A DNA stretch of 33,209 nt from an uncultured Lachnospiraceae bacterium (GTDB lineage: Bacteria; Bacillota; Clostridia; Lachnospirales; Lachnospiraceae). Within the stretch, counting starts at the first letter, position 1. Each line of letters starts with the position of its first letter. Position numbers and translations under genes: made by a program. The notes under the pieces are model-generated. The model worked only from the letters and a program-made list of their open reading frames with translations, was not told the origin of the DNA and did not search any database. Positions 1 through 32,468 of the stretch are shown piece by piece. The stretch is taken from contig CAOKQK010000039.1 in assembly GCA_948470905.1 (NCBI GenBank), positions 1 to 33,209 on the forward strand. Reading direction: 5' to 3'.

Positions 1-295
1 GACAGCCAGGAAACAGGTAAGGCGGATACAGGCAGGGCAGGTAAGGACAGCCAGGAAACAGGTAAGGCGGATACAGGCAGGGCAGGTAAGGACAGCCAGG
101 GAACAGGTAAGGCGGATACAGGCAGGGCAGGTAAAGACGGCCAGGAAACCGGCAAGACGGATAAAGACAAGACGGATGCGGGCAAGGCAGGTAAAGACGG
201 CCAGGGAACCGGCAAGACGGATAAAGACAAGACGGATGCGGGCAAGGCAGGTAAAGACAGCCGGGAAACAGGCAAGGCGGATAAAGACAAGGCAG
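1..295 (+). repeat. In-frame tandem repeats in the IF-2 N-terminal region
   Basis: Three 45-bp units (1-45, 46-90, 91-135) encode [15 protein letters not shown] with one E/G change. Two 60-bp units follow (136-195, 196-255) encoding the expanded form [20 protein letters not shown], then a decaying copy from 256. All lengths are multiples of three, so the IF-2 frame is kept. The array begins at base 1 and may continue to the left of the window. The product is highly charged and probably disordered. Confidence 0.9.
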
Positions 296-3200
296 TCAGA
301 GGCAAAAAGGACAAAGACAGGGAGGAGAAGGCGGCAGAGGCCGAAAACACCGGGACGGAAGACGTTAAGATGGATAATACGAGGGTAAAAGATACGAAAA
401 AGGAAACAAAAACAGACACAAAGACGGAAGGCATCAAAACAGAAGGTACAAGGACGGATGATGCTAAGGCGAAAGGCGCCCGGAAGGAAGGCGCTGTGAA
501 AGAAAATTCAGGAAAGGAGAATTCTGTGAGAGAGGAAAAGCCTGCGAAAGCGGATCCGGCACAGGCGGAAGGAAAGCAGGATGCGCCTGCCGCAAAGGCT
601 GCGGAGTCGGACGCTCCCAAAAAGAAGAAGACCATCATCTTTGTGAGCAATCCGCAGAATTCCAAGATGTCGGGCCAGCGCCAGAATCAGGGCGGGAACA
701 ACAGGGCGCAGGGAGGCGGCAGCAGACCCAATAACGGGCGCGGCAGCGGGAAGAGCAGCAAGCCCCAGGAGAAACCGCGCATGCCGATCAAGCCCCTGAC
801 GCCCCCGTCCCCGACCCCTGCGGTACAGATGGTGCCATCCAGGCAGCCTCAGCACAAGGCGCGTCCTGAACAGCAGGCAGAGAAGAAGGAGGCAGTGCAG
901 GCAGCTGCGAGGGAGCAGGATAAGCTGCAGGGCCAGCCTTCCCAGGGGGAGAAGACACAGAACCGTCCTCAGGGAGACAGGGTTCAGAATGCCCGTCCTC
1001 AGGGAGAAAGGTCCCAGAATCATCCTCAGGGAGAGAGAGCCAGGAACGCCGGGAATGGTCAGGACAGAGGCAGCCAGGACAGGAATAATCAGGATAGAGG
1101 CGGCAGGTTTAACGACAATCGCGGCGATAACAGGAACCGCGACAACAGAGGCCAGGGCGGTCGTCAGGACAGAGGGCAGTTCCAGAACAGAGGAGGCAGT
1201 GGAAATGGCGGCGGCAGACCTACGGGAGACAGACAGAATGGATTTCAGAGATCTGGCAGGCCGGGCGGTGAAGGCGGTCAGGGTGACAGGCGTATGCCTG
1301 GCGCTGGTCCGGACCGCGGTCGCGGCTTTGGAGGTGGTTCCCGCGATAACGGCGGCTATAACCGCGGCAATGGAGGAACGGGAGCTGGATTCCGGGATAA
1401 AGGAACAGGCAAGGGCTTTGGCACAGATGCTGCGCCCGCAAAGGATATGGAAAAGAAGCGCGAGGAAGAAAAGAGACGCGCAAACAGCCAGGAGAAGGAT
1501 AAGCGCTCCAGGAAGGATCACATTTACGAGGAAGAAGACACACTGAAGAACAGGCCCGGCAGGTTCATTAAGCCGGAAAAGAAGAAGGAAGAGGCGGTGG
1601 AGGAGGTCATCAAGGTGATCACCCTGCCGGAGATGATAACGATCAAGGACCTGGCGGACAAAATGAAGCTGCAGCCCTCCGCTATTGTCAAGAAGCTTTT
1701 CCTGGAAGGAAAGATCGTCACCGTCAACCAGGAGATCTCCTACGAGGATGCGGAAGGCATTGCCATGGAATACGACATCCTCTGCGAGAAGGAGGTCAAG
1801 GTCGATGTCATTGAAGAACTGTTGAAGGAGGATGACGAGGAGGAGAGCAAGCTGGTGGAGAGGCCGCCTGTCATCTGTGTCATGGGTCATGTGGATCATG
1901 GAAAAACTTCCCTGCTGGATGCCATCAGGAAGACAAATGTCACCGACAGGGAGGCAGGAGGTATCACACAGCACATAGGTGCGTATACTGTAAATGTCAG
2001 CGGAAGGAAGATAACCTTTTTGGACACGCCGGGACACGAGGCGTTTACCGCCATGCGTATGCGGGGTGCAAATTCCACCGATATCGCGATCCTGGTGGTT
2101 GCGGCGGATGACGGCGTCATGCCTCAGACCGTCGAGGCTATCAGCCACGCAAAGGCGGCTGGCATCGAGATCATCGTGGCGGTCAACAAGATCGACAAAC
2201 CCTCTGCGAACATCGACCGCGTGAAGCAGGAGCTGACGGAGTATGAACTGGTCGCTACGGACTGGGGCGGGAGCACGGAGTTCGTACCTGTGTCCGCAAA
2301 GTCCGGGGAGGGCATTGAGGATCTGCTGGAGACCATTCTGCTCACGGCGGATATCCTGGAGCTGAAGGCAAATCCTGAAAGAAGGGCGAGAGGGCTGGTC
2401 ATCGAGGCGGAGCTGGATAAGGGACGCGGACCTGTGGCAACCGTGCTGGTGCAGAAGGGAACCCTGCATGTGGGAGACTTTATTTCTGCCGGGGCATGCT
2501 ACGGCAAAGTGCGTGCGATGGTGGATGACAAGGGCAGGCGCGTGAAGGAGGCAACTCCCTCCATGCCTGTGGAGATACTGGGACTGTCCGATGTGCCCAG
2601 CGCAGGTGAGGTGTTTATCGCCCATGAGAATGACAAGACGGCAAAGACCTACGCGGAGACTTATCTGGCGCAGAATAAGGAGAGGAAGCTGGAGGAGACC
2701 AAGGCAAAAATGTCTCTGGACGATCTGTTCTCCCAGATCCAGGAGGGCAGCTTAAAGGAGCTGAACCTGATTGTCAAGGCGGATGTACAGGGAAGCGTGG
2801 AGGCGGTAAAACAGTCTCTGCTGAAGCTTTCCAACGAGGAGGTCGTGGTAAAGTGCATCCATGGCGGCGTCGGCGCCATCAACGAGTCCGATGTCACTCT
2901 GGCAAGCGCTTCCAATGCGATCATCATCGGCTTTAACGTAAGGCCTGACGTGACCGCCAAGGCGACTGCGGAGCGGGAGGGCGTGGATGTAAGGCTGTAC
3001 AAGGTCATCTACCAGGCAATCGAGGATGTGGAAGCTGCCATGAAGGGTATGCTTGACCCTGTCTTTGAAGAAAAGGTTATCGGCCACGCGGAGGTCAGAC
3101 AGATATTCAGGGCTTCCCAGATTGGAAATATTGCAGGTTCTTATGTGATGGACGGCATATTCCAGAGAGGCTGCAAGATCCGCATCACCCGTGAGGGAAA

Positions 3201-3360
3201 TCAGATCTATGAGGGCGCGCTGGCATCCCTGAAACGTTTCAAGGATGATGTAAAGGAAGTGAAAGAGGGCTTTGAGTGCGGCCTGGTATTTGAGGGCTTT
3301 GACCAGATCCAGGAGCTGGATATGATCGAGGCGTATATTATGGTGGAGGTGCCCAGGTAA
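1..3360 (+). CDS. infB: Translation initiation factor IF-2, 5' end outside the window
   Basis: IF-2 is the GTPase that places initiator tRNA on the 30S subunit and drives subunit joining. The frame is open from base 1. A Met at 370 would give 996 residues but has no good ribosome binding site, and the in-frame repeats upstream continue the same acidic/basic low-complexity style, so the true start is probably beyond the left edge. Numbering from Met370: a charged Lys/Glu-rich region, an RG/Gln/Asn-rich tract at about 195-350, an IF2_N-type domain at about 417-473, then the G domain with GHVDHGKT (505-512), DTPGH (552-556), NKID (606-609) and SAK (642-644), followed by the conserved C-terminal domains ending in MVEVPR. 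The visible protein of at least 1119 residues is longer than typical IF-2, all of the excess being N-terminal. It heads a cluster with rbfA, nrnA, truB and ribF. Identity is certain; only the start is unknown. Confidence 0.97.
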
Positions 3361-25318: not shown

Positions 25319-25339
25319 CTGCCGCGGCAATGTCTGTCC

Positions 25340-25426
25340 GGGGATCGGAGTGAGAAGCATTGTGTGTTCTGCCCCGGGGACCGGAGTGAGAAGCATTGTG
25401 CATTCTGCCCCGGGGGACCGGAGTGA
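25340..25426 (+). repeat. 36-bp direct repeats between the lipoprotein and MBOAT genes
   Basis: Two nearly identical 36-bp units (25340-25375 and 25376-25411) each run from GGGGAYCGGAGTGAG through AAGCATTGTG to CTGCCCC. A third, partial copy starts at 25413 and diverges after GGAGTGA. They end about 40 bases before the MBOAT start. Confidence 0.85.
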
Positions 25427-26882: not shown

Positions 26883-27983
26883 ATGTGGGAAAAAACGAAA
26901 AATACAGTCACAGTATCTGTGATGGCGGCCTTTTTTCTGGTCTTTTTTGTCTGGTGCCTTTTTAAGCCTGCGGACGAGGCTTCGGACAGCGAGAGAAGAA
27001 AGCTTGCAGCTATGCCCGCATGGAAGCTTGCCGATGTTATGTCCGGAAAATATATGAAAGATTTTGAAGATTACGCCATGGACCAGTTCCCGCTTCGGGA
27101 CAGCTTCCGGACGGTAAAGTCCTACACGGCTTTTTACCTGCTTGGGCAGAGGGATGTGGGAGGGATTTATTTAAGGGACGGATATGCTTCCAAGCTGGAA
27201 TATCCTCTGCACACAGACTCGCTTGACTATGCGGCGGCAAGGCTTGAACGCATTTATGACAAGTACCTGAGCGGCAAAAATGTGAACCTTTATCTGTCTG
27301 TAATCCCTGATAAGAATTATTTCCTGGCGGGAGCAAACGGTTATCCTGCCATGGATTACGGGGAGCTTGTCTCGTACCTTCGGGAGCGGACGGACTATAT
27401 GCAGTATATAGACATCTTTGACTGCCTGGAGCTTTCAGATTACTACAGGACGGATACCCACTGGCGTCAGGAAAAGATCGTGGATGTGGCGCAGAAGCTT
27501 GGGGAGGGCATGGGAGTTACGCTTTCCGGGCAATATACCCGGCGGCTTCTGGATAAGCCTTTTTATGGCGTGTATTATGGGCAGTCGGCGCTGCCGCTTC
27601 CCGCCGAGCAGCTTTATTATCTGGACAGCGAGGTCATCAATGCCTGCCGGGTATACGACTTTGAGACTAATTCCGAGACGGTTGTATACGATATGGAAAA
27701 GGCCCGGGGCAAGGATCCCTATGAAATATTTCTGGCAGGCCCCAAGTCCCTGATGACCATAAAAAATCCCGGCGCAGACCCGGACAAAAGGCTGATCATT
27801 TTCCGGGATTCCTTTGGAAGCAGCATTGCGCCGCTGCTGGTCGAAGGCTATGGGGAGATCACCCTGGTGGATATCCGTTATCTATCAAGCGATATGCTGG
27901 GCAGCTTCCTGGACTTTGACAACAGCGACGTGCTGTTCCTCTACAGTACCCTTGTGCTTAATAACAGCGTTACGATGAAATAG
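26883..27983 (+). CDS. DHHW/AlgX-like protein, probable surface acetyltransferase partner
   Basis: A 366-residue protein with one N-terminal membrane span (VSVMAAFFLVFFVWCLF, about 11-28), so the main domain is outside. It shows the SGNH-hydrolase-like pattern of AlgX/AlgJ/DHHW proteins: YMKDFEDYAMDQFPLRDSFRTVK, GIYLRDGYASKLE, VIPDKNYFLA, the DTHW motif at 191-194 and RDSFG at 308-312 with candidate nucleophile Ser310. These enzymes take acetyl groups delivered by the MBOAT protein and place them on a polysaccharide. AGGAGG lies just before the ATG at 26883 and the two genes are 11 bases apart. The acceptor polymer is unknown. Confidence 0.88.
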   Translation: MWEKTKNTVTVSVMAAFFLVFFVWCLFKPADEASDSERRKLAAMPAWKLADVMSGKYMKDFEDYAMDQFPLRDSFRTVKSYTAFYLLGQRDVGGIYLRDGYASKLEYPLHTDSLDYAAARLERIYDKYLSGKNVNLYLSVIPDKNYFLAGANGYPAMDYGELVSYLRERTDYMQYIDIFDCLELSDYYRTDTHWRQEKIVDVAQKLGEGMGVTLSGQYTRRLLDKPFYGVYYGQSALPLPAEQLYYLDSEVINACRVYDFETNSETVVYDMEKARGKDPYEIFLAGPKSLMTIKNPGADPDKRLIIFRDSFGSSIAPLLVEGYGEITLVDIRYLSSDMLGSFLDFDNSDVLFLYSTLVLNNSVTMK

Positions 27984-28067
27984 CGGAATGTTGGTTCCCG
28001 GGGCGGAACCATGCGGGATTTTCATTTCACATCGGTGATAAATTTGCAACATTTTTTTATTTACATC

Positions 28068-28096
28068 TTGAATTATGATGGAAAATTATGTAAAAT
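28068..28096 (+). promoter_or_regulatory. Promoter for gapA
   Basis: TTGAAT and TAAAAT are 17 bases apart. The start near 28103 gives a leader of about 90 bases. A CAATCTG/CAGATTG inverted repeat (28114-28120, 28146-28152) lies in that leader and could be an operator or RNA stem. Confidence 0.6.
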
Positions 28097-28190
28097 GAAT
28101 TTGCTGATAAAATTTTGACAATCTGCGGCGTATGAAAATGCGGGCCAGATTGCAAAATAATATAAAATATAATTTCAGGAGGAAACTAAA

Positions 28191-29204
28191 ATGGCAGTAA
28201 GAGTAGCAATTAATGGTTTCGGCCGTATTGGTCGTCTTGCTTTCAGGCAGATGTTTGATGCGGAAGGGTATGAGGTAGTTGCGATCAACGATCTGACAAG
28301 CCCTGAGATGCTTGCACATTTGCTGAAGTACGATACCGCTCAGGGTAGATACAAGTATGCGGACAAGGTAGAGTCCGGCGAGGATTCCATCACCGTAAAC
28401 GGCAAGAAGATCACAATCTACAAGGAGGCGGACGCTTCCAAGCTTCCCTGGGGCGAGCTGAAGGTTGACGTTGTTCTGGAGTGTACCGGATTCTATACCT
28501 CCAAGGAGAAGTCCATGGCACACATCAATGCCGGCGCGCGCAAGGTTGTTATCTCTGCACCTGCAGGAAACGATCTTCCTACCATCGTATACAATGTAAA
28601 CCATGAGACTTTAAAGCCCGAAGATACCGTTATCTCCGCAGCTTCCTGCACCACAAACTGCCTTGCGCCCATGGCAAAGGCCCTGAACGACCTGGCACCC
28701 ATCCAGTCCGGCATCATGACCACTGTTCATGCTTACACCGGCGACCAGATGATCCTTGACGGACCGCAGAGAAAGGGCGACAAGAGAAGAAGCCGTGCAG
28801 GTGCCTGCAATATCGTTCCCAACTCCACCGGCGCTGCAAAGGCAATCGGTCTTGTTATCCCTGAGCTGAACGGCAAGCTGATCGGTTCCGCTCAGCGTGT
28901 TCCCACCCCTACCGGCTCCACCACGATCCTGGTGGCGGTTGTCAAGGGCAAGGTGACAAAGGAGCAGATCAACGACGCCATGAAGGCTGCTCAGACCGAG
29001 TCTTACGGCTACAACACAGACGAGATCGTATCTTCCGACGTTATCGGAATGACCTACGGTTCCCTGTTCGATGCAACCCAGACCATGGTAGCTCCCATGG
29101 AGGATGGCAATACTCAGGTTCAGGTTGTTTCCTGGTATGACAATGAGAACAGCTACACATCTCAGATGGTCCGCACCATCAAGTATTTCAGCGAGCTGGG
29201 CTAA
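28191..29204 (+). CDS. gapA: Type I glyceraldehyde-3-phosphate dehydrogenase
   Basis: GAPDH converts glyceraldehyde-3-phosphate, NAD+ and phosphate to 1,3-bisphosphoglycerate. The NAD-binding start is [18 protein letters not shown], and AINDL supplies the Asp that favours NAD over NADP. The catalytic site is [12 protein letters not shown] with Cys153, and His180 in [52 protein letters not shown] and [15 protein letters not shown] are also conserved. At 337 residues it is complete. AGGAGG supports the ATG. A good terminator follows, so gapA is separable from pgk although the three glycolytic genes lie in pathway order. Confidence 0.98.
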
Positions 29205-29244
29205 GTCTGAAACAGCGGATAAGGGGCAAACAATGAGACCTTTG

Positions 29245-29276
29245 GGGTCCGGTCTTTTGGACCGGGCCCTTGTTTT
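29245..29276 (+). terminator. Terminator after gapA
   Basis: GGGTCCGGTC pairs with GACCGGGCCC (one G-U pair) across a TTTTG loop and is followed by TTGTTTT. Confidence 0.88.
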
Positions 29277-29300
29277 GATTCCCGCGGGCAATGAGTTAAG
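29275..29300 (+). repeat. Partial copy of the dispersed GCCCGCGGG repeat
   Basis: Bases 29275-29296 are identical to 3384-3405 over 22 positions, including CCCGCGGGCAATGAGT. The match stops after that. It directly abuts the gapA terminator tail. The remaining spacer to pgk (29301-29472) shows no gene and no clear promoter. Confidence 0.6.
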
Positions 29301-29472
29301 TCAATTACATTGACTTTGTGCGTGCCTGCACGGGGGTGTTGGTTTCGGGCGGGGAGAGTGGAGTTTCCCGTCTGGCTTCTGAGATGGAAAACAGTTTCGG
29401 AAATTTTGGTGACATATTTTGAAGAATTTTGGAGATATAAAGTTTTAGAAATGTTAAAAGGAGATTTATAAA

Positions 29473-30696
29473 ATGAGTTTGAACAAAAAGTCTGTTGACG
29501 ATATCAATGCAAAGGGAAAGAGGGTTCTGGTGAGATGTGATTTCAACGTGCCTTTAAAGAACGGGGAGATCACTGACGAGACAAGGATCGTGGCAGCTCT
29601 GCCCACCATCAAGAAGCTCATTAATGACGGCGGCAAGGTGATCCTCTGCTCCCATCTGGGCAAGGTGAAGGAAGGACCCAACGAGAAGGAGTCCCTGGCG
29701 CCCGTGGCAAAGAGCCTTTCCGAGAAGCTGGGCAAGGATGTGGTTTTTGTGGCTGATTACAATGTGACGGGCGCAGATGCCACCAAGGCCGTGGAGGCTA
29801 TGAAAGAGGGAGATGTGGTGCTGCTCCAGAATACACGTTTCCGCGGCGCGGAGGAGACGAAGAACGGAGAGCAGTTTTCCAAGGAGCTGGCTGACCTGGC
29901 TGACCTTTATGTATGCGATGCCTTTGGTTCCTCCCACAGGGCTCATGCTTCCGTGGAAGGCGTTACCAAATTTATCACGGCAAAGGGCGGCACAAACGCT
30001 GTGGGCTATCTGATGCAGAAGGAGATTGATTTCCTGGGCAACGCTGTGGAGAATCCCGTAAGGCCTTTCGTTGCCATCCTGGGCGGTGCGAAGGTTGCAG
30101 ACAAGCTGAATGTTATTTCCAACCTGCTGGAGAAGTGCGATACCCTCATTATCGGCGGCGGCATGGCTTATACATTCCTGAAGGCACAGGGCATGGAAGT
30201 GGGCAATTCCCTGGTGGACGACGAGAAGATCGGTTACTGCAAGGAGATGATGGAGAAGGCAAAGAAGCTGGGCAAGAAGCTTCTGCTTCCCATTGATACC
30301 ACCATTGCGGCAGGCTTCCCCAACCCCATAGACGGGCCGGTTGAGGTTTCCCATGTGGATTCCGATAAGATCCCGTCCGACATGGAGGGGCTGGATATCG
30401 GGCCTAAGACACAGGCTCTGTTTGCGGACGCTGTAAAGAGCGCAAAGACCGTTGTGTGGAACGGGCCCATGGGTGTGTTTGAGAATCCCACCCTTGCGGC
30501 AGGCACCATCGCGGTGGCGAAGGCGCTGGCTGAGACGGACGCAACGACCATCATCGGCGGTGGCGATTCCGCTGCGGCTGTGAACCAGCTGGGCTTCGGG
30601 GATAAGATGAGCCACATCTCCACCGGCGGCGGCGCTTCCCTGGAGTTCCTTGAGGGCAAGGTACTCCCCGGCGTTGCGGCAGCAGACGACAAATAA
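29473..30696 (+). CDS. pgk: Phosphoglycerate kinase
   Basis: PGK transfers phosphate from 1,3-bisphosphoglycerate to ADP. The substrate-binding N-domain shows [49 protein letters not shown] and NTRFRGAEE. The hinge and C-domain show [52 protein letters not shown] and [15 protein letters not shown]...[16 protein letters not shown]. The 407-residue length is normal. The last codons, VAAADDK and the stop, form the first copy of the 52-bp tandem array that fills the gap to tpiA. AAAAGGAG supports the ATG. Confidence 0.98.
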
Positions 30697-31006
30697 GACG
30701 GACCGGGAAGCAGCAACGCCGTGAGTTGCGGCAGCAGACGACAAATAAGACAGACCGGGAAGCAGCAGCGCCGTGAGCTGCGGCAGCGGACGACAAATAA
30801 GACAGACCAGGAAGCAGCAGCGCCGTGAGTTGCGGCAGCAGACGACAAATAAGACGGTCCGGGAAGCAGTAACGCCGGGGGCTGCGGCAGTGGACGACAA
30901 ATAAGACAGACCGGGAAGCAGCAACGCCGTGAGTTGCGGCAGCGGACGACAAATAAGACGGTCTGGGAAGCAGCAACGCCGTGAGTTGCGGCAGCGGACG
31001 ACAAAT
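30673..31006 (+). repeat. 52-bp tandem array from the pgk stop to the tpiA promoter
   Basis: Seven copies: a first partial one at 30673-30720 that includes the last codons and stop of pgk, five full 52-bp units starting at 30721, 30773, 30825, 30877 and 30929, and a last partial unit at 30981-31006. Each contains TTGCGGCAGCRGACGACAAA (or close variants) and TAAGAC...GGGAAGCAG. Unit boundaries form a hairpin GCAAC-GCCGTGA-GTTGC. Between copies 2 and 3 both arms change together to GCAGC/GCTGC, and between 3 and 4 the pair is G-U. The length is not a multiple of three, so no coding frame is kept. Confidence 0.95.
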
Positions 31007-31014
31007 GATATAAT
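30986..31014 (+). promoter_or_regulatory. tpiA promoter built on the last repeat copy
   Basis: A perfect TATAAT at 31009-31014 with an upstream TGA (extended -10) is 17 bases after TTGCGG at 30986-30991, which belongs to repeat copy 7. The other copies have GACRGA at the -10 position and would not be promoters. Confidence 0.6.
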
Positions 31015-31048
31015 GATGCGGAATTGAAAAGGAATCGAGGAAAAGATT

Positions 31049-31801
31049 ATGGCAAGAAGAAAGATCGTAGCCGGCAACTGGAAGATGAATATGACTCCCA
31101 GCCAGGCAAAGGCGCTTTGTGAGGAGCTCAGGGAGCTTGTAAAGACCGATGACGCAGACGTTGTCTACTGCGTTCCTGCTATTGACATTGTGCCTGTGGT
31201 GGAGGCAGTCAGGGGTACAAATGTTGAGGTAGGCGCGGAGAATATGTACTTTGAGGAAAAGGGCGCCTATACAGGAGAAATTTCAGCGGCAATGCTTGTG
31301 GACGCAGGTGTCAAGTACGTCATTATCGGACATTCTGAGAGGCGCGATTATTTCAAGGAGGACGATGCACTTCTCAATAAGAAGGTTAAGAAGGCGATTG
31401 AGGCGGGGCTTATCCCCATCCTTTGCTGCGGTGAGACCCTGGAGCAGAGGGAGATGGGTGTTACCATGGATTGGATCCGTCTGCAGATCAAGTCTGATTT
31501 AGACGGTGTAACCGCAGATCAGGTGAAGGAGCTGGTGATCGCATATGAGCCTATCTGGGCGATCGGAACCGGCAAGACCGCCACTACCGAGCAGGCGGAG
31601 GAAGTCTGTAAGGGCATCCGTCAGTGCATTGCCGAGATGTACGACGAGGCAACTGCAGAGGCAGTCCGCATTCAGTACGGCGGCTCTGTAAATGCCGGCA
31701 ATGCGGCAGAATTGTTCGCACAGCCCGATATTGACGGCGGCCTGGTGGGCGGCGCTTCCTTGAAAGCAGACTTTGGCAAGATTGTAGCCTATAACAAATA
31801 G
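31049..31801 (+). CDS. tpiA: Triosephosphate isomerase
   Basis: TPI interconverts dihydroxyacetone phosphate and glyceraldehyde-3-phosphate. The 250-residue TIM barrel carries AGNWKMN with Asn10 and Lys12, the electrophile His95 in [11 protein letters not shown], the base Glu167 in [15 protein letters not shown] (loop 6) and [30 protein letters not shown] for phosphate binding. The order gapA-pgk-tpiA follows the pathway. It has its own extended -10 promoter inside the array and a clear terminator. GAGG is eight bases before the ATG. Confidence 0.98.
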
Positions 31802-31816
31802 TAAAACTGCAAAATA

Positions 31817-31857
31817 ATATCCCGGGATTTCCTTCATCAGGATTCCGGGATATTTTT
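31817..31857 (+). terminator. Terminator after tpiA
   Basis: ATATCCCGG pairs perfectly with CCGGGATAT (31817-31825, 31845-31853) and is followed by TTTT. Confidence 0.88.
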
Positions 31858-31926
31858 GTGTCACAGTAAAAAATAAACCACCGGCTATGCCGGTGCGTCC
31901 CCACCAGCTTCAACTATAAGAAAAGA

Positions 31927-31984
31927 ACCTCCTATGGTATGATGGATATGGGTTTGCCAACCATAAAAAACATACATAGGAGGT
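31927..31984 (+). promoter_or_regulatory. Inverted repeat sequestering the transposase ribosome binding site
   Basis: ACCTCCTATG (31927-31936) is the exact complement of CATAGGAGGT (31975-31984), and the latter holds the AGGAGGT that serves ATG 31992. In an mRNA starting upstream the site would be paired. IS200 is known to limit transposase translation in this way. Confidence 0.65.
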
Positions 31985-31991
31985 ATCCAAA

Positions 31992-32468
31992 ATGGATAAT
32001 AACAGTTTAGCGCATACCAAGTGGGAATGCAAGTATCATCTGGTGTTTGCACCAAAGTACAGAAGGCAGATTATATATGGAAAGATTAAGGCAGATGTGG
32101 AACAAATACTGAGTACCCTTTGCAAGAGGAAAGGAATAGAGATAATAGAAGCGGAGTGCTGTAAGGATCATGTGCATATGCTGGTAAGGATCCCGCCCAA
32201 GTACAGCGTGTCGGAAATTATGGGTAATCTGAAAGGGAAGAGCTCGCTGATGATATTCGAGCGGCAGGCAAACCTGAAGTACAAATATGGGAACCGTCAT
32301 TTCTGGTGCAGAGGGTATTATGTGGATACGGTGTGAAAGAACACCAAGCGGATTCAGGAGTACATAGCAAATCAGCTGAAAGAGGATCACGAAGCGGATC
32401 AGATGACGCTGAATGAGTATATAGACCCGTTTACGGGTGAGCCAGTACAAAAAGGCACAAAGAAATAA
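31992..32468 (+). pseudogene. tnpA: IS200-type transposase with premature stop
   Basis: The frame encodes a Y1 transposase that would be 158 residues. It begins TKWECKYHLVFAPKYRRQIIYGK and has the HUH metal motif in CKDHVHMLVRIPPKYSVSEIMGNLKGKSS and the FWCRGYYVDTV segment. A TGA at 32334-32336 (codon 115) interrupts it where relatives usually have Gly (DTVG-N), consistent with a GGA-to-TGA change. The same frame then continues KNTKRIQEYIANQLKEDHEADQMTLNEYIDPFTGEP to TAA at 32466. The probable catalytic tyrosine, Tyr124 in QEYIANQ, is nine codons after the stop, so the truncated product lacks it. Confidence 0.85.

Follow-up and report, generated by a model that had tools for sequence, protein, structure and literature searches.

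REP and BIME sequences are hairpin-forming intergenic palindromes that sometimes lie between the genes of an operon, and REPs are dispersed in many copies. Intrinsic terminators place a GC-rich stem past the stop codon. In E. coli operons, PMC5927463 describes protective structures at decay boundaries, often inside coding ends, and notes that Firmicutes have RNases other than those of E. coli. Template switching, in turn, is reported in PMC8794818 to give rise to stems and to be consistent with compensatory changes. Here we describe an element at the 3' end of pgk in an uncultured Lachnospiraceae bacterium (33,209 nt of contig CAOKQK010000039.1; "the window" denotes this whole stretch). Its core is a predicted stem between the last pgk codons (arm a) and a 3' UTR arm (a'), which is followed by a non-coding copy of the pgk tail (a2). 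Like the protective structures of the malE-malF type in PMC5927463, it is a gene-end structure within a gene cluster, partly coding and evolutionarily conserved. Those structures, however, were mapped there through RNA 3' ends in E. coli and its relatives, whereas the pgk stem is known from sequence and in another phylum; unlike them, it has a 3' arm that is a reverse-complement match of coding sequence, and it joins tandem arrays. The template-switch hairpins of PMC8794818 share with it a nearby reverse-complement stem with multi-base compensatory changes, but were studied in RNA genes, whereas the pgk element has one protein-coding arm, belongs to one gene and keeps a near-constant boundary. 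With REP/BIME it shares a hairpin-forming repeat but, unlike REPs, it is confined to one locus; membership in that class was rejected, since all matches in its own genome lie in the array and 47 of 48 matches in the genus lie at pgk. A GC-rich stem past the stop codon also recalls an intrinsic terminator, an assignment rejected because no U-tract follows a' in the window. Among the relatives compared, one (L032) has a T-run, but past its a2. We lean slightly towards the reading that the pgk mRNA of some species of the genus can form a stem-loop spanning the stop codon. In this gene of central glycolysis, the choice among synonymous codons appears to be linked to an arm in the 3' UTR.

Pfam confirmed the gene order gap, pgk, tpi. 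The junction between the last two carries a 52-bp tandem array (Table 1) with 90% matches and zero indels. A preliminary description had seven copies filling this gap. The array is real and contains seven copies of the pgk tail (one coding, five complete and one of 22 nt) and six spacers, but it amounts to 6.4 copies, begins inside pgk, whose last codons (VAAADDK) and stop make up its first 24 nt, and leaves the final 42 nt upstream of tpiA outside. Each unit consists of the pgk tail (24 nt), spacer V (14 nt), arm a' (11 nt) and TGA (3 nt). The array occupies a single place in its genome, the four matches found there all falling inside it. A dispersed repeat of this genome was rejected, as a looser pattern gave 8 matches (three in the array) against 12 for the reversed control. 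Rfam returned two weak matches in 28000-32000, both below the gathering score and neither in the array. The terminator and promoter scan placed none of its nine terminator-like sites of 27900-32100 within 30673-31006 and listed no promoter in the array. A limited search of the open-access literature found no description of the element.

Table 1 Features of the pgk-tpiA junction, with positions in the window
Feature	Position	Strand	Basis
pgk (phosphoglycerate kinase), ends ...PGVAAADDK*	29473..30696	+	ORF; Pfam PGK, E 1.7e-153
Arm a, CGGCGTTGCGG: last base of Pro codon and Gly-Val-Ala codons of pgk	30669..30679	+	nine paired bases, 30669-30677
Tandem array, period 52, 6.4 copies	30673..31006	+	TRF
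pgk stop codon, within loop of a:a' stem	30694..30696	+	ORF
Spacer V of unit 1, 14 nt, species-specific sequence	30697..30710	+	comparison of loci
Arm a' of unit 1, CAGCAACGCCG	30711..30721	+	30713-30721 complementary to 30669-30677
TGN linker	30722..30724	+	TG in 26/28 first units
a2, first non-coding pgk-tail copy; first bases also able to pair with a' (local hairpin)	30725..30748	+	
Arm a' of unit 2, CAGCAGCGCCG	30763..30773	+	unit listing
Arm a' of unit 3, CAGCAGCGCCG	30815..30825	+	unit listing
Arm a' of unit 4, CAGTAACGCCG	30867..30877	+	unit listing
Arm a' of unit 5, CAGCAACGCCG	30919..30929	+	unit listing
Arm a' of unit 6, CAGCAACGCCG	30971..30981	+	unit listing
Last pgk-tail copy, partial, 22 nt, continues into tpiA leader	30985..31006	+	sequence, TRF
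Extended -10-like TGATATAAT, 17 nt past TTGCGG (30986-30991)	31006..31014	+	regex; consensus match only
tpiA (triosephosphate isomerase)	31049..31801	+	ORF; Pfam TIM, E 5.8e-98

The preliminary description also held that unit boundaries fold as hairpins (GCAAC-loop-GTTGC) preserved by a compensatory change. The arms it quoted are present, GCAGC/GCTGC at 30765-30769/30777-30781, as are the G-U pair at 30817-30821/30829-30833 and the mismatch at the following boundary. The compensation itself proved to be at chance level: when two C's and two G's are distributed over six boundaries, at least one C faces a G in 9 of 15 arrangements. Because such a lucky pair is expected that often, the window by itself is no evidence of covariation. 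The local hairpin folded no better than shuffles (z 0.08), and the whole array gave z -1.28. On the mRNA strand, the a:a' fold of unit 1 was not unusual for its composition (z -0.05 against shuffles), and the opposite strand of the same unit folded better than its own shuffles (z -2.35). Long antisense ORFs (507, 256 and 141 aa; minus strand, 29554-31077) cross all or much of the array. These ORFs and the opposite-strand fold signal are possibly a by-product of base composition.

Comparison with relatives pointed to another stem. Among 182 distinct pgk loci, 28 carry the element as first defined, and L244 adds one that differs at the last base of a'. An 11-nt pgk stretch, CGGYGTNGCNG (last base of the Pro codon, codons for Gly, Val and Ala, and a further base), can pair with a'; in the window the match is perfect over 9 bp, CGGYGTNGC (30669-30677) facing 30713-30721 past the stop. 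The distance from stop to a' is 13-16 nt in 22 of the 28 loci, 29-30 nt in five and 10 nt in one (L245), which has one extra pgk codon and still a 30-nt loop between a and a'. The spacer varies between species; the downstream arm nevertheless tracks each species' own pgk codons. We aligned 26 first units (alignment A1), excluding L137 (masked stretch) and L165 (contig end), which were also left out of the energy set and were kept in the 28-locus set and the pgk tree; L244, whose a' ends in ACCA, is counted among the 29 and lies outside both the 28-locus set and A1. RNAalifold selected exactly the 9-bp a:a' stem. Its cells are paired in 93.7% of cases, compared with 22-55% when the arms are slid by 1-3 columns, and on three of five measures (pairing percentage, doubly changed cells and covariation score) the observed value was attained by none of 500 shuffles. 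The remaining two, which count doubly changed pairs and types of pair, were not above shuffles, because only three pairs vary on both sides. At the Val codon the pair is U-A in 11 sequences, C-G in 8, G-C in 6 and broken in 1; at the Gly codon it is C-G in 18, U-A in 7 and U-G in 1. RNAalifold and these pair counts in 26 species support a conserved RNA structure, as predicted from sequence, at the end of the upstream gene. GTA for the paired valine occurs in 0 of 29 element-bearing and 32 of 84 other genus loci (Fisher 2e-5, relatedness ignored).

As the 28 loci were picked partly by complementarity, the independent check was made on 22 loci found with a pattern blind to the pgk codons. There, the Val position was Watson-Crick in 21 of 22, compared with 36% when species were swapped, and the Gly position was Watson-Crick in 21 of 22 plus one G-U, compared with 61%. 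This match rate disfavours a neutral minisatellite, that is, an ordinary slippage array in which pairing arises by chance. Array copies do differ mainly by single substitutions with no segment clearly protected, and other gene-tail arrays occur in G053, as such a process would have it, but it leaves unexplained both why the downstream arm follows the pgk codons from species to species and why some elements consist of a single unit with no array (L018, L025, L136). We hold it to be very unlikely.

The covariation test across related genomes suggested in the preliminary description thus did find covariation, yet the best stem joins pgk codons to the 3' UTR and is other than the hairpin proposed there. 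Structure at the pgk 3' end remains the best reading of the comparative data; the proposed local hairpin, a':a2, is less well supported than a:a'. Were each such hairpin selected as a rung of a ladder tuning pgk mRNA stability, its pairing and covariation should exceed shuffles, and they do, as must follow if a2 copies a. However, a':a2 covaries less than a:a' and has 85.2% paired cells against 93.7%, and its predicted stability is lower (median -7.1 against -16.0 kcal/mol); the minimum free energy structure contains a:a' in 19 of 26 units and the local hairpin in 1 of 26. Nor do copies within arrays show clear constraint: per-site diversity within 13 arrays was 0.030 for the arm core, compared with 0.044 for the spacer and 0.025 for the tail (first units included; no significance test), so that the arm core is not clearly less variable than spacer or tail. 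The selected ladder is therefore unsupported, and we give it scant credence.

The changes recur along the phylogeny. On the pgk tree of the 28 loci, parsimony requires the Val base to change at least 12 times, its partner 11 times and the two jointly 12 times, compared with a mean of 19.2 and a minimum of 15 joint changes when the partner is shuffled (1000 shuffles); for Gly the counts are 8, 6 and 8 jointly, against a shuffled mean of 12.5 and minimum of 9 (1000). These counts are parsimony on one gene, the shuffles ignore relatedness, and gene transfer is likely. Such recurrent compensation could come from selection on the stem or from its main rival, template switching (quasipalindrome correction), in which a replication fold-back copies the pgk arm onto a' and renews the pairing in the absence of selection or function. 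On whether compensatory change reflects selection or template switching, PMC8794818 calls the role of the latter less clear. Two loci are instructive. In L250, two units differ at a single a' base, the one opposite the Gly codon of pgk: the unit next to pgk fits its GGC, and the second keeps the A suited to GGT. In L244, pgk has GGT, and the spacer of its second unit is almost identical. Because the Gly-paired base of a' falls in the loop of the local hairpin, only pairing with, or copying from, the coding arm explains this base. In L009, unit 1 matches its own pgk at both changed positions, and the arm of unit 2 fits the pgk of its sister L014 (tree support for the grouping, 100/99). Both cases are compatible with either copying or selection. 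Template switching would explain in one event the two-base compensation between L009 and L014, one base being a transversion, as well as the single matching base in L250, and units within arrays look unconstrained, as it would leave them. Against template switching as the sole cause, correction would be expected to act more easily on the tighter hairpin, with its 7-nt loop, than on a stem with a 30-47-nt loop, but a:a' is the better kept: at the Val position in A1, the pair between a' and a2 is missing in 6 of 26 sequences and that between a' and a in 1. Independent events would not be expected to leave the same arm boundary, RCCG followed by TG, in 26 of 28 loci. Core G-U pairs persist in L018, L165 and L011. 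In the 9-bp core of the 28 loci, four G-U stand against no A-C mismatches, with three other breaks (four to one once L244 is added), an excess too small to decide between the two. We give template switching an appreciable but minority chance. Both processes may act, template switching supplying changes and selection keeping them; the pgk-tail copies may record earlier codons, making the locus a natural test of RNA selection against DNA template switching. On position, complementarity, species-by-species covariation and near-exclusive location at pgk, we infer that the RNA folds as a:a' and that selection keeps the stem.

How specific is the element to pgk? Of the 113 loci read in the genus, 29 carry it at pgk, as does one species belonging to another genus. 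In 138 genus genomes, the search pattern matched at 48 places in 26 genomes, 47 of them at pgk-tpiA and one with neither pgk nor tpi nearby; a reversed control pattern gave 5 matches. Thirty of the 48 were read as loci, and the other 18 share contigs with these and lie beside them or, in the case of G013:C8, beside tpi. G080 has the units on a contig that lacks pgk, and a match in G424 was rejected as a pgk element, since neither pgk nor tpi was matched within its 3-kb locus. Among 394 family genomes outside the genus, only G243 carries the exact pattern at pgk; its pgk is 77% identical and is followed by a 49-bp array with the same arms, and the pattern was not found in 12 other genomes of its genus. 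The pattern is strict, missing L011, L013, L027 and L132 within the genus, and its absence does not equal absence of the element. Of the 27 element loci scored, 22 had an exact stem of at least 9 bp, compared with none of 83 further pgk loci of the genus, none of 69 from other genera and 4 of 339 genes other than pgk; on these counts we rejected a general property of pgk ends or of genes. The element-bearing bacteria are probably gut-dwelling.

The preliminary description held that arrays absent and stems unpaired in close relatives would point to neutral slippage. The first part of this applies to most relatives, 29 of 113 genus loci having the element; but since none of the 83 loci lacking it that were scored has an exact 9-bp coding-UTR stem, the element looks present or absent as a unit. 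Its distribution is patchy, with 16 changes on the tree, 7 of them forced by well-supported branches (24 elements then known). This patchiness would be accounted for by a small element, mobile or moved by site-specific recombination, that inserts at the end of pgk and restores its frame, with a', linker and a2 as the recombination core. Such an element would also account for the tail copies in L009, L018 and, up to the stop, L013, whose differences from the coding tail are all synonymous (by eye), and similar spacers in distant species suggest transfer (by eye). This explanation is nonetheless the least probable of the explanations considered: 47 of the 48 pattern matches in 138 genomes lie at pgk, the intervals read (up to 1302 nt; loci at contig breaks are uninformative) held no large element with flanking tail copies, and clean loss by slippage would also account for the patchiness. 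Indeed, because a', linker and pgk-tail copy leave direct repeats at the locus, slippage between tail copies would make arrays, and a slippage deletion between them would remove the element cleanly and so would account for its patchy occurrence. The repeat array is probably a by-product of the stem at the pgk end, an example of an array arising from a neighbouring structure.

If selection keeps the a:a' stem, as we favour, it is probably a 3' shield or insulator ahead of tpiA, maintained by compensatory change. Its 3' arm beginning 10-16 nt past the stop, or 29-30 nt in one subgroup, the stem would block 3' exonucleases once the transcript has been cleaved or terminated between pgk and the gene that follows, and gap and pgk mRNA would stay more abundant than downstream mRNA. 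A translation-sensing switch at the end of the enzyme gene is an unlikely further role. The a:a' loop is about 31 nt, and a ribosome footprint is near this size. Ribosomes finishing pgk would keep arm a open and leave a' free for a2; when translation drops, a:a' would close over the stop codon and alter decay or termination before tpiA. Extra array units would provide competing arms, and their copy number could tune the switch. Uncoupling of pgk from tpiA, also raised in the preliminary description, may apply in the window, because the extended -10-like TGATATAAT sits at the array end. This possible tpiA promoter is the sole such site among 110 genus pgk-tpiA intervals (regex), and it is absent from the list of the consensus promoter scan since its first hexamer fails the rule of that scan.

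Other features of these intervals and of the window were recorded. ORFs of at least 80 aa lie between pgk and tpiA in 10 of 26 bearers compared with 8 of 84 others (relatedness ignored), a difference that speaks for the protective reading of the stem; three of their products, inspected by eye, are a MazG-domain protein, one with no Pfam match and an alpha-L-fucosidase-domain protein. Two types of tpiA adjoin pgk in the genus, one sharing about 90% and the other about 73% identity with that of the window, while pgk stays mostly above 85%; this suggests that tpiA has been replaced. Elsewhere in the window, 45- and 60-bp tandem repeats (1-319) lie in the N-terminal part of an open-ended ORF (1..3360) identified by Pfam as translation initiation factor IF-2, and a 36-bp repeat of 2.4 copies (25338-25426) overlaps the 5' end of an ORF whose product has an MBOAT acyltransferase domain. 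Among genes chosen by codon scoring, a direct repeat of the gene tail of at least 12 nt follows the stop in 7 of 150 genes of G053, one of them pgk, and in 1 of 165 of G096; the G053 gene-tail arrays (L203-L212; G053:C11 1-200000) include minus-strand genes at 72045, 126349 and 151850. Finally, a second hairpin family, of the AGAAAATCTAAG...CTAAGATTTTCTAAG type, lies just past pgk or its element in L015, L031, L037, L130, L131, L139 and L160, and its outer arms are complementary to the sequence around the stop codon (AGGCCTGA/TCAGGCCT, CGGAATAA/TTATTCCG and AGGCATAA/TTATGCCT).
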